Shown: piece by piece, positions 6,762 through 29,717 of the stretch
Position numbering within the stretch: position 1 is the first letter of the stretch
Layout: every line of letters starts with the position of its first letter
Assembly: GCA_003972955.1 (NCBI GenBank)
Contig: QOAQ01000136.1
Span: forward strand, 1 to 33,310
Origin: Aquificaceae bacterium
GTDB lineage: Bacteria; Pseudomonadota; Gammaproteobacteria; Thiotrichales; Thiotrichaceae
Reading direction: 5' to 3'
DNA length: 33,310 bases
Program-made: the position numbers and the translations under genes
The notes under the pieces: model-generated
Seen by the model: only the letters and a program-made list of their open reading frames with translations
Told to the model about the DNA's origin: nothing
Database searches by the model: none

Positions 6762-6850
6762 TGTAGCCTGTGCTGAGGAACGAAACACAGGGATACTCGG
6801 CGCGGTGCTCTGTCTCTAAACCCGTGTTTCGTACCTCAACACAGGCTACA
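6762..6850. repeat. Inverted repeat TGTAGCCTGTGCTGAGG...CCTCAACACAGGCTACA
   Basis: About 30-nt arms (6762-6792 / 6821-6850) with few mismatches, in the intergenic space. Related half-copy at 14638-14668. Confidence 0.8.
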
Positions 6851-10261: not shown

Positions 10262-11386
10262 GTGATTTATAGAAAAGAAATTGATGGTTTACGCGCACTA
10301 GCGGTTATCCCCGTTGTCCTTTTTCATGCTGGTTTTGAATGGGTCTCGGGGGGCTATGTTGGTGTTGATGTTTTTTTTGTTATCAGCGGTTATTTGATTA
10401 CCTCTATTTTACTAGGGGAGTTGCAAAGTGGTAGCTTTTCTATTCGTAATTTCTATGAACGGCGCGCCCGTAGAATCCTACCTGCTTTATTCTTAGTGTT
10501 ACTTTTTTGCTTACCGTTTGCGTGGCTGTGGTTGTTGCCAGAAGAGTTAGAAGCATTTGCAAGAAGCTTGATAGCCGTCATTGCTTTTGTCTCAAATATT
10601 TTATTTTGGCAAGAAACAGACTATTTTACTGCAAGCACCGACCTTATTCCTTTATTACATACATGGAGTTTGGCGGTTGAAGAACAGTTTTATATTTTCT
10701 TTCCCTTATTTTTAGCCATCTTTTGGAAAGCAGGGCGACGTATTTTATTGGCAGTGATCGCTGTTGTGGCATTAGTAAGTTTAGGTCTTACTGAATGGGG
10801 GTGGCGTTATTATCCTGAAGCTAACTTCTATTTAATTTTTACACGAGCATGGGAGTTGATGATAGGCGCGTTCGTGGCATTTTATCTTTTTTATAAGGAA
10901 CAGCCTCATGGCCAATTTAATGAAATAGTTAGTTTTATCGGGCTTGCTATGATTGTCTCATCACTCTTTTTTTTAGATAAAAGCCTCCCTTTTCCAAGTG
11001 TTTATGCACTAATTCCAACCGTTGGTACAGCACTTGTTATTCTCTTTGCAACGACAAATACCCTCGTTAATAAACTACTTTCCTTAAAACCATTCGTTGC
11101 GATAGGGCTGATTTCTTATAGCGCCTATTTATGGCATCAACCCTTATTTGTCTTTGCGCGCGCTTATTATATGGATGAACCAAATCGTTTGATTATGTCT
11201 GCATTAAGTATAGGCGCATTATTTTTAGCGTATTTAAGTTGGCGCTTTGTGGAGAAGCCCTTTAGAAATAAACAACGCTTTAGTCAAAAGCAAATATTTG
11301 TCTCAGCATTTGTAGTGAGTCTGTTATTTATTGCTGTAGGGGTATTTTTGATAATATCAGAGGGCGCAATGTATCGTTTTGCTTGA
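10262..11386 (+). CDS. Acyltransferase 3 family membrane protein (OafA-like), no SGNH domain
   Basis: YRKEIDGLRALAVIPVVLFHAG, GGYVGVDVFFVISGYLIT, NFYERRARRILPALF; GTG start; stops right after the last predicted TM. Confidence 0.9.
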   Translation: MIYRKEIDGLRALAVIPVVLFHAGFEWVSGGYVGVDVFFVISGYLITSILLGELQSGSFSIRNFYERRARRILPALFLVLLFCLPFAWLWLLPEELEAFARSLIAVIAFVSNILFWQETDYFTASTDLIPLLHTWSLAVEEQFYIFFPLFLAIFWKAGRRILLAVIAVVALVSLGLTEWGWRYYPEANFYLIFTRAWELMIGAFVAFYLFYKEQPHGQFNEIVSFIGLAMIVSSLFFLDKSLPFPSVYALIPTVGTALVILFATTNTLVNKLLSLKPFVAIGLISYSAYLWHQPLFVFARAYYMDEPNRLIMSALSIGALFLAYLSWRFVEKPFRNKQRFSQKQIFVSAFVVSLLFIAVGVFLIISEGAMYRFA

Positions 11387-11410
11387 TTATAGACATTCAC
11401 TTAAATAATT

Positions 11411-11460
11411 TCCCTTCGACTCCGCTCAGGGTACTAGCTCCCTGAGCGGAGTCGAAGGGA
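11411..11460. repeat. Perfect 21-bp hairpin repeat TCCCTTCGACTCCGCTCAGGG-8 nt-CCCTGAGCGGAGTCGAAGGGA
   Basis: Arms 11411-11431 and 11440-11460 are exact reverse complements; loop TACTAGCT. Confidence 0.95.
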
Positions 11461-11488
11461 ATGGAAATTTAATATATGAAAGACTATA
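11457..11488 (+). repeat. Second copy of 32-nt dispersed repeat GGGAATGGAAATTTAATATATGAAAGACTATA
   Basis: 30 of 32 identical to 9271-9302. Partially mirrored upstream of the hairpin (11391-11414, TATAGACATTCACTTAAATAATTTCCC). Confidence 0.85.
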
Positions 11489-12091: not shown

Positions 12092-12153
12092 TATCCGCAC
12101 CCTTCGACAAGCTCAAAGAACTAGCTCCCTGAGCTTGTCGAAGGGGGCGGATA
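12092..12153. repeat. Hairpin repeat TATCCGCACCCTTCGACAAGCTCA...TGAGCTTGTCGAAGGGGGCGGATA
   Basis: 24-nt arms with one mismatch. Shares outer CCCTTCGAC and loop ACTAGCTCCCTGAG with 11411-11460. Confidence 0.92.
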
Positions 12154-12335
12154 GTTTACTATTGTTTAGCCAGTCTTCATGTGGCTGGGAAATGTAATAC
12201 CCTGCTCTTCTTTATCAAAACAAAAAAAAGGGAAAAAAATCCCAAAAAATGATAGACGGTATATATTTTGTAGAGTACTATGCACCCCGCTTCGATCTAG
12301 ATGCTTATTTTTTGAACAATCAAAGGGGAAATAAA

Positions 12336-12665
12336 ATGAAAAATTACATAGTTTCAACAATAGATGGGCTACCTATTGAAAATACATTTAATATACAAAA
12401 AGAAAATGAAGTTGCCGCATTAACAGCCGCACTATCAGGTCTTAGTAAAGGCTTAAGAGAAGATCTCGACCTTGGGGAAATAGGAACAATTATTATTAGT
12501 GGTGATAAAGGATGTTACGGAATGCGCTACATTGATAATGAGCGTATTTTAGGCATGATGGCATCGGATGTAACATCTGAAAATGAATTATTAGCAGATA
12601 TTGATAATTTAACGTTTGCAATGCAAAACAATGAAATATCAATTAATAGTTTAGCTAAGGTTTAA
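12336..12665 (+). CDS. Roadblock/LC7 (MglB-like) domain protein
   Basis: VSTIDGLPIENTF followed by EVAALTAALSGLSKGLREDLDLGEIGTIIISGDKG; ATG at 12336 preceded by AAGGGG. Confidence 0.6.
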   Translation: MKNYIVSTIDGLPIENTFNIQKENEVAALTAALSGLSKGLREDLDLGEIGTIIISGDKGCYGMRYIDNERILGMMASDVTSENELLADIDNLTFAMQNNEISINSLAKV

Positions 12666-12674
12666 GAGGGCGTT

Positions 12675-12860
12675 ATGAAAAAATTAAAAACATCACACAT
12701 AGTAAAAAATATTTTTTATGGACTTCTTTTATTAGTATCGGCATCTGTATTTGTTGTCTTTGCGAATACGAAAGAAATCTCTCCTATTGTTAATACATCC
12801 GATCTTCCTGTTTGCAATATTGAGACACTCTCCAGTTTAGGAGATGAATCACTGTTGTAA
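12675..12860 (+). CDS. Small membrane or secreted peptide (61 aa)
   Basis: One N-terminal hydrophobic segment; starts 10 nt after the Roadblock-like gene. Confidence 0.5.
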   Translation: MKKLKTSHIVKNIFYGLLLLVSASVFVVFANTKEISPIVNTSDLPVCNIETLSSLGDESLL

Positions 12861-12931
12861 TTTTTACTTGGTGTTATTTCTAGCTTCTAAGGAACGGTTA
12901 CCATATATTATTTGCCTGTGTTGTCTGTGGT

Positions 12932-12954
12932 TTTAAACCACGGAACACACTGAA
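12932..12954 (+). repeat. 23-nt repeat TTTAAACCACGGAACACACTGAA
   Basis: 22 of 23 identical to the reverse complement of 14716-14738; sits on a GTGGTTTTAAACCAC palindrome (12927-12941). Confidence 0.8.
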
Positions 12955-13016
12955 TACACGAAAGGTTTGATACTCCGCTACCTTATTAGAGCATGGAAGC
13001 GAGAAAATTTATCTCG

Positions 13017-13658
13017 TTAGCCAATAGTCTCAGCAAAATAAACCGTTTCAAACAATGTATCGTTTTTGTTAAAAAAACTAGGATATGCTTCTTTGATTTT
13101 TGGCATTGCAAATGAAAGAGTCTTATTTACAACATCATCAAGTGAGTAGTCGGGTGATGTCGTGGCATAGAGATGAATATGGTCTTTACCATAAGCCAAG
13201 ACTTCCAGATGACCATCAAATAGAGCACCAGATCCAGAAAACATTGAAGACAGATCAATATCTGTATCTACAAAAAGTGGCTCTCTAGCTTTGGTGATTA
13301 AGCAGATATGAAAGTTCAAGTCAGTAATTATTTGATCAGGGTTGGATGATAATTTTTGCAGTGCCAAGGCTTTTAGCCATTTATGTTTATTGGATAATTG
13401 GAAGTTGTTATCGCTCCATTTGTCATCTTCATTATTACCTTTCTCATCCCGTAAAACAGTATCAAATTTTTCATTATGAGCACTATCGATAATAGATAAA
13501 TTAGGTCTGTATGAAAAACAATCAATTTCACTATCATTTTCAGTAGTTTGTAAAAGAGAGCATAAAATTGTCTCCTCAAATGCTAGTTTTTGGCAAATAC
13601 TGCAATCCTTGGAAATTATATTGTGATGATATTTATAGCATTTATTACAATATGGCAT
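13017..13658 (-). CDS. Zinc-ribbon protein with IS200/RAYT-like HUH (Y1) domain
   Basis: N-term CNKCYKYHHNIISKDCSICQ; then LNFHICLITKAREPLF, LEVLAYGKDHIHLYATTSPDYSLDDVVNKTL (HIH = HUH motif) and terminal LFETVYFAETIG (candidate catalytic Tyr). Confidence 0.6.
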   Translation of the reverse strand: MPYCNKCYKYHHNIISKDCSICQKLAFEETILCSLLQTTENDSEIDCFSYRPNLSIIDSAHNEKFDTVLRDEKGNNEDDKWSDNNFQLSNKHKWLKALALQKLSSNPDQIITDLNFHICLITKAREPLFVDTDIDLSSMFSGSGALFDGHLEVLAYGKDHIHLYATTSPDYSLDDVVNKTLSFAMPKIKEAYPSFFNKNDTLFETVYFAETIG

Positions 13659-13739
13659 TTTTAATATACCTTTATTTCTAGTTTCTAGGCTCTGCGTGGG
13701 AATGAATAAATATCATTATTAGATAATCTCATCAACGCA

Positions 13740-13990: not shown

Positions 13991-14572
13991 CTATAAAGTA
14001 TCTTTCATTGCTTGTGCTAGCTCTATAGAGTTTCTTTTTATACTTTCTTCGATGACGTGCAGGCGGTCGGCTTTAGGGCGGTTTTGGCTTAATTTATACT
14101 TTCCTTGAATTTCAGTTATTTCTATCTCAATCCCAATAATGGCTTTCAACATTGCTTCTTTATATTCAGGTTGCCAAGGTTTTTGCATGGAGGCTTCATA
14201 GGTATTACTCAGTGCTTCAACAAGTTTAGCGAGTGCTTTGTTTTCGGTGATGAGTGTAGCTTTACCGTAAATATGCACTGCTTGGTAATTCCATGTGGGT
14301 ACGCCTGCACTGCTGTACCATGAGGGGGATACATAATCATGCGCTCCTTGGAAGGTGATGAGTAATTCTTGATTTTCAATATTTTTCCATTGAGGATTTC
14401 TTTTTGCTAGGTGGCAGCTCACAGTTTTTTTATCGTCATCGAGAAGAAAGGGGATATGAGAAACAAAGGGGCGATTATCAATGGATGAGATAAGTTGCCC
14501 GAACGCATTGGCTTTGATAAAAGCAAAAAGCTCTTTTTGATCGCTTACATTAAAAGACGTGGGGATATACAT
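13991..14572 (-). CDS. paiB: PaiB-like FMN-binding transcriptional regulator
   Basis: MYIPTSFNVSD start, HLAKRNPQWK, FQGAHDYVSPSWY, VPTWNYQAVHIYG. Confidence 0.88.
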   Translation of the reverse strand: MYIPTSFNVSDQKELFAFIKANAFGQLISSIDNRPFVSHIPFLLDDDKKTVSCHLAKRNPQWKNIENQELLITFQGAHDYVSPSWYSSAGVPTWNYQAVHIYGKATLITENKALAKLVEALSNTYEASMQKPWQPEYKEAMLKAIIGIEIEITEIQGKYKLSQNRPKADRLHVIEESIKRNSIELAQAMKDTL

Positions 14573-14637: not shown

Positions 14638-14668
14638 CCTGTGTTTCGCTCACTCAACACAGGCTACA
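14638..14668 (+). repeat. Hairpin CCTGTGTTTCGCTCACTCAACACAGG + CTACA, related to 6821-6850
   Basis: 8-bp perfect stem CCTGTGTT/AACACAGG; shares GTGTTTCG...CTCAACACAGGCTACA with 6821-6850. Confidence 0.75.
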
Positions 14669-14715: not shown

Positions 14716-14738
14716 TTCAGTGTATTCCGTGGTTTAAA
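14716..14738 (-). repeat. Inverted copy of 23-nt repeat TTTAAACCACGGAAYACACTGAA
   Basis: Reverse complement matches 12932-12954 with 1 mismatch. Confidence 0.8.
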
Positions 14739-29082: not shown

Positions 29083-29472
29083 CTATAGGAAGGGGTTAAG
29101 CAATCGAACACCACAAGATTCAAAGTCTTTTATATTACGAGTCACCAATGTCAGATCATGAATAACCGCAGTGGCTGCAATTAACATATCAGCTTGCGTG
29201 CGTATTTTTCCCTGTGCTTGTAAATTGCCACGACTTTCACCTGCATAGCGTGCAATATTATCGCTAACGGCTAATACGGTGCAGTAATCTTGCAGAAAAT
29301 TGTCCAACCATAAACGAATACGTGGATTAGGCTGCCATGATAAACCAAAATATAACTCATCCACCGTAATGCTACTGAGATGAATATGTTGATGCTGACT
29401 TGCCCATGTCCAAACACCTTTATTCGGTTGCGGACGCGCTAACTCGCTAATAATATTGGTATCACACAACAT
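29083..29472 (-). CDS. vapC: PIN-domain toxin (VapC/FitB-like)
   Basis: MLCDTNIISELARP, IRTQADMLIAATAVIHDLTLVTRNIKDFE. Confidence 0.92.
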   Translation of the reverse strand: MLCDTNIISELARPQPNKGVWTWASQHQHIHLSSITVDELYFGLSWQPNPRIRLWLDNFLQDYCTVLAVSDNIARYAGESRGNLQAQGKIRTQADMLIAATAVIHDLTLVTRNIKDFESCGVRLLNPFL

Positions 29473-29474
29473 AT

Positions 29475-29717
29475 TTACAGCTCATTTGCAAAAGGGTTGG
29501 GACGATTCTGACGTTTTACCTCAGGAAAAGGATTATTATTTAATTTAAGCTGATGCAGTGTTTTAAACGCAGTACACAAGCCTTGTGTCGTTTCCTGCTT
29601 TTTCATGCGAATAAGTTCTCTCAGTGCAAAGTCTATTAATTCGCGTTTGGTTTTTAGCCCTGTTAATAAAAAAGCTTCAGTGGTTAGCTGGTCATTTAAG
29701 ACGATATTTGTACGCAT
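29475..29717 (-). CDS. vapB: VapB-type antitoxin
   Basis: MRTNIVLNDQLTTEAFLLTGLKTKRELIDFALRELIR; perfect AGGAGGT SD; immediately upstream of the toxin. Confidence 0.9.
   Translation of the reverse strand: MRTNIVLNDQLTTEAFLLTGLKTKRELIDFALRELIRMKKQETTQGLCTAFKTLHQLKLNNNPFPEVKRQNRPNPFANEL

Follow-up and report, generated by a model that had tools for sequence, protein, structure and literature searches.

What might a transposase-like protein do when the part of the fold that should carry its catalytic tyrosine is missing? The question is raised by an open reading frame (ORF) of 213 aa on the minus strand (13658-13017) of the window, by which we mean the whole stretch of 33,310 nt that was analysed. 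An earlier note had proposed that this ORF encodes a domesticated or divergent RAYT (TnpA_REP) with an added zinc ribbon, acting on the palindromic repeats in its surroundings.

An IS200-type core that ends before the tyrosine helix

The ORF is present where the earlier note placed it, and its 213 codons are open, with no internal stop or frameshift. In this frame the codon usage is coding-like (+0.13 bits per codon, compared with -0.19, -0.17 and -0.04 in the other readings), although most neighbours score higher (0.12-0.38 bits per codon) and the coding signal is about zero over the first 60 codons. The GC content is 33% against 41% for the window; the adjoining sdhE is as low as the ORF in both GC and coding score. 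No promoter or terminator stands out at the ORF, and a defence-system search gave no match. The features of the gene are as follows.

13017..13658, minus strand: ORF of 213 aa, an N-terminal region followed by a Y1/HUH core without the C-terminal Tyr helix (ORF listing, profile matches, codon usage)
13593..13649, minus strand: CxxC-x11-CxxC, residues 4-22, a possible metal knuckle (sequence)
13020..13325, minus strand: Y1_Tnp core, residues 112-213, profile positions 3-107 of 121 (Pfam, AF2 model, Foldseek)
13173..13181, minus strand: HIH (HUH) motif, residues 160-162 (translation)
12961..13016, minus strand: sequence after the stop, where the Tyr helix would be expected to be encoded (three-frame translation, folding)

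Residues 112-213 match the Pfam family Y1_Tnp (PF01797) with E = 3e-9 (37.5 bits, cut-off 23) and include HIH at residues 160-162, the HUH motif noted earlier. The protein also matches NCBIfam NF033573 (IS200/IS605 transposase) with E = 8.6e-10 and 38.9 bits, below the cut-off of 55, and PHROG 2577 (a phage transposase family) with E = 1.1e-9. When the core is aligned with TnpA sequences, the identity is 23-28%, and D159 and H160 are invariant.

The ColabFold (AF2) model was built on an alignment that contained seven TnpA core rows, IS200 TnpA sequences among them; between residues 111 and 210 its pLDDT, averaged by blocks, is about 71-92. A single-sequence model, of low confidence (mean pLDDT 42), places the core elements in the same order. 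In a Foldseek search of the model against the PDB, places 1-29 are all IS200/IS605-type transposase chains, with E of about 4e-5 to 1e-3 to ISDra2/IS608 TnpA (ISDra2 2xm3, E = 4e-5), while E. coli TnpA_REP (4er8) stands at place 30 (E = 8e-3, TM 0.31-0.38); since the model alignment included IS200 TnpA rows, this ranking leans to IS200 and cannot count as evidence separate from the sequence matches. The core, as aligned and as modelled, thus appears to resemble IS200/IS605 TnpA more closely than TnpA_REP.

The nucleophilic tyrosine of IS608 and ISDra2 TnpA is carried, together with a glutamine metal ligand, on a C-terminal helix. In the ColabFold model the final element is a strand (residues 203-212) that no helix follows; VYFAETIG are the last residues of the protein, and of the 121 profile positions the Pfam match reaches no further than 107. 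Intact TnpA relatives in other genomes (L005 and L014) give full-length Pfam matches with the segment YFAGS.GG...QYIEQQ, in which the catalytic tyrosine of QYIEQ lies near profile position 117. The protein had been described as ending almost right after the tyrosine site; this has to be corrected, as the stop comes some 10 profile positions too early to include the catalytic tyrosine. The codons beyond the stop read RDKFSRFHALIR and then another stop, and a three-frame translation of the sequence downstream contains no Y...Q (Tyr/Gln) helix in any frame. The Y----Q motif of TnpA_Y1 class 3 is likewise absent from the protein and from the downstream frames, and the folding z-score of -0.75 for 12961-13019 indicates no significant hairpin. 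Because the C-terminal Tyr/Gln helix is absent, the ORF polypeptide alone should be unable to carry out Y1 cleavage, and we infer from the sequence that it should be cleavage-incompetent by this mechanism.

The N-terminal region, its distribution and the locus

The CNKC and CSIC motifs reported earlier are found in the sequence, with cysteines at residues 4, 7, 19 and 22. A profile search with the N-terminal ~110 residues matched no known family, and the designation "zinc ribbon" is therefore unproven. Residues 1-94 are mostly unresolved in the models, which are of low confidence there; the single-sequence model draws the cysteine region as a hairpin and a helix with a pLDDT of about 44-50 only. 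What stands of the zinc ribbon claim is the spacing of the four cysteines, without a profile match or a confident model, and on the strength of this spacing the region may bind metal.

The protein was found in 1 of the 63 family genomes searched, the source genome. Proteins sharing the N-terminal region were not found among 95 relatives, in 369 genomes of the class, 399 of the phylum and 78 of another class, in a single-protein scan of the contigs of 84,980 species (which reaches close relatives only), or in IMG/VR, phage and plasmid searches; the genome, viral, phage and plasmid searches gave no full-length relative either. The matches obtained are ordinary IS200-type TnpA cores of 22-35% identity, apart from L003 (Thermoplasmata, 43% over 40 residues), which we rejected as a chance match in a long archaeal reading frame without Y1 context. 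No report of a fusion between a reverse transcriptase and a Y1 domain came up in a literature search. No relative has the same N-terminal region or the same early stop, so there is nothing against which selection on the protein could be demonstrated.

In ten relatives, the spot after sdhE lacks the gene and the downstream gene differs. The neighbours in the window are sdhE and a PNPOx-like gene, neither of which is recognisable as a partner. The latter, an FMN-binding gene (13991-14572, minus strand) placed between sdhB and sdhE, was looked for in 12 genomes, including 8 congeners, and was seen elsewhere only in congener G002, adjoining sdhB. Positions 12249-12860 (plus strand), which run convergently to the Y1-like gene, encode a Roadblock/LC7-domain protein and then a short ORF whose N-terminus is signal-like. 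By eye, positions 29083-29717 (minus strand) resemble a toxin-antitoxin pair with a toxin of the VapC (PIN) type. Three repeats lie close to the gene.

12874..12889, plus strand: direct repeat TTATTTCTAGCTTCTA on one side of the gene, 15/16 match with 13672-13687
13672..13687, plus strand: direct repeat TTATTTCTAGTTTCTA on the other side, the pair of 12874-12889
12930..12960: 31-nt copy of a dispersed repeat of 23-31 nt (TTTTAAACCACGGAACACACTGAATACACG... / CCGTGGTTTAAA...), with an inverted relative at 14716-14738 and matches in four other contigs

None of 300 shuffles reached the 15/16 match of the 16-nt pair, and no further copy of it was found in a 384-kb sample of the genome. These direct repeats, which were noticed after the fact, are compatible with a late arrival of the 0.8-kb segment between them. 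An IS200 insertion was considered as their origin and rejected, since elements of the IS200/IS605 group are not known to duplicate their target sites. No hairpin in 12930-13019 or 13659-13739 is better than those of shuffled sequence, and subterminal IS hairpins were not found flanking the gene.

Palindromic repeats as proposed substrates

The hairpins that had been put forward together as candidate substrates belong to two unrelated families, one at 11410 and 12092 and the other at 6762 and 14638.

11410..11461: perfect TTCGAC-type palindrome, 22-nt arms (hairpin search)
12092..12153: TTCGAC-type palindrome, 31-nt arms, 87% complementary (hairpin search)
6762..6850: inverted pair of GTAG-tagged REPs, REPIN-like (hairpin search, pattern count)
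14638..14668, minus strand: single GTAG-tagged REP (pattern count)

A genome-wide count placed both families many times above control: the TTCGAC family has 138 half-sites in the 1.78-Mb assembly against 0 for a reversed-pattern control, and GTAGCCTGTGTTG (≤1 mismatch) has 24 genome sites against 1, several of them in REPIN-like inverted pairs. The repeats near the gene are thus real, as had been noticed, but they are not locally enriched: counting perfect stems of 12 or more in genome stretches totalling 384 kb, window included, we obtain a density of 0.6 per 10 kb for the window and of 1.07 per 10 kb for the whole sample. Matches to Rfam miRNA families at 11386-11488 and 12092-12153, below gathering scores, were discarded as artefacts of perfect palindromes.

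GTAG-tagged REPs are of the type that has been linked to RAYTs (PMC3733652, PMC6006769). The one nearest the gene is about 1 kb off, past sdhE and the PNPOx-like gene. The source genome also contains a genuine E. coli-type TnpA_REP of 175 aa with HFH and YNPVKHG (L001:1375-1899, contig C47, minus strand; Pfam E = 7e-11, 4er8 match E = 1.1e-26), which is adjoined by GTAGGGTCGGT inverted repeats of the GTAG type in a REPtron-like locus. This protein is the expected partner of the GTAG REPs at 6762 and 14638.

The TTCGAC pattern occurs in 26 of the 63 family genomes, the source genome included, and the other 25 have no match to the ORF protein. One of these 25, congener G004, carries this palindrome (CCTGAGC..GTCGAAGGG) at 620 half-sites in a genome of about 2.9 Mb. 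Since this palindrome is abundant in genomes without the ORF protein, the protein is not needed for the spread of the repeat. A REP family that flanks and tracks the gene, as for a RAYT, was not found among the family genomes, where TTCGAC palindromes abound in the absence of the gene, and the proposal that the local hairpins are substrates fails for the TTCGAC family and is not supported for the GTAG REPs. As a by-product, the CCTGAGC..GTCGAAGGG palindrome emerges as independent of the ORF protein in its own family, with a copy number that jumps between congeners: 138 half-sites in the source genome, 0-15 in other congeners and a sudden expansion in G004.

Alternative readings and known systems

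We read the ORF, with a probability of about 0.4, as an orphan IS200/IS605-type TnpA derivative that is non-catalytic and, if expressed and kept, most likely a binder of ssDNA or hairpins. In such a protein the HUH core, from the first strand to the last, would sit behind an N-terminal region of ~110 residues, and without the Tyr/Gln helix it would neither cut nor rejoin ssDNA by the Y1 mechanism. Its TnpA-like surface would bind ssDNA or DNA hairpins non-catalytically, and the N-terminal region may add contacts. A more specific role, in which a nucleophile-free HUH protein joins hairpin recognition by the TnpA core to a cysteine-bearing N-terminal domain and serves as a hairpin-dependent regulator or a repair accessory rather than a transposase, is rather doubtful. 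The retention of HIH without the tyrosine is odd for a long-standing non-enzyme and counts against the retained binder.

The reading of the earlier note, a domesticated RAYT that processes local palindromes, has become highly improbable. The Y1 family, the HIH motif and palindromes repeated genome-wide speak for it, but the catalytic tyrosine is absent, IS200 TnpA outranks TnpA_REP in similarity, and a real TnpA_REP stands on C47 beside GTAG-type repeats; moreover, the TTCGAC palindrome is commonest in G004, occurs in other family genomes that also lack the protein, and hairpins are not enriched in the window. What survives from that proposal is a divergent protein of Y1/HUH descent, extended at its N-terminus; the RAYT identity is not supported. 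A far stronger competitor, and a real possibility, is a truncated relic, namely a once-active TnpA-like gene whose 3' end was deleted or replaced and which is by now silent or in decay. The gene is present in one species only, at an intergenic spot after sdhE that varies among relatives; the TnpA tail is missing exactly at the site of the catalytic helix, a dispersed repeat occupies the 3' flank, and the coding signal is weak and the GC low, although sdhE next door is equally low in both. Partial copies are also reported to be frequent among IS200-subclass genes, and in some members of class 3 the HuH or Y motif is not conserved (PMC6006769). Against a relic, the 213 codons contain no stop or frameshift, the stop is located at a domain boundary, and the lost helix has no recognisable remnant downstream. 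The intact frame and the stop at the domain end lead us to favour the retained hairpin or ssDNA binder slightly over the relic.

The early stop could also be the natural C-terminus of a rare, unsampled family, whose HUH core acts in hairpin-dependent regulation or with a partner that supplies the nucleophile. This is unlikely: the stop directly after the last core strand, the conserved D-HIH and the large N-terminal extension would suit such a family, and a class that is rare and conserved over a longer N-terminal stretch has been reported (PMC6006769), but the genome searches found no second member, and neither sdhE nor the PNPOx-like gene is a recognisable partner. Should selection maintain the orphan TnpA derivative, it would illustrate how the core of an HUH transposase can be turned to binding DNA that it does not cut; as a relic it would be nothing unusual.

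Among known systems, E. coli-type TnpA_REP/RAYT (4er8) shares with the ORF protein the HUH-Y1 superfamily and a REP-bearing genome; the ORF protein differs in its weaker structural match, the lack of the tyrosine and the lack of a flanking REPtron. TnpA_Y1 class 3, which we compared by its description, is rare and has extended N-terminal conservation, a signature Y----Q and a 155-aa profile (Quentin et al. 2018, PMC6006769); the ORF protein is similarly rare with an extended N-terminal part, and lacks that signature, as some class 3 members lack the conserved HuH or Y. Hairpins with a CnGA foot were not noticed among the repeats that came to light. Compared with the IS200/IS605 TnpA proteins (ISDra2 and IS608; TnpA_Y1 subclass 1.1), the ORF protein has about 110 extra N-terminal residues and no Tyr/Gln helix, and its gene is single copy with edges free of IS-end hairpins, while the core fold, the strand order and an HUH motif with U = I are alike in both.
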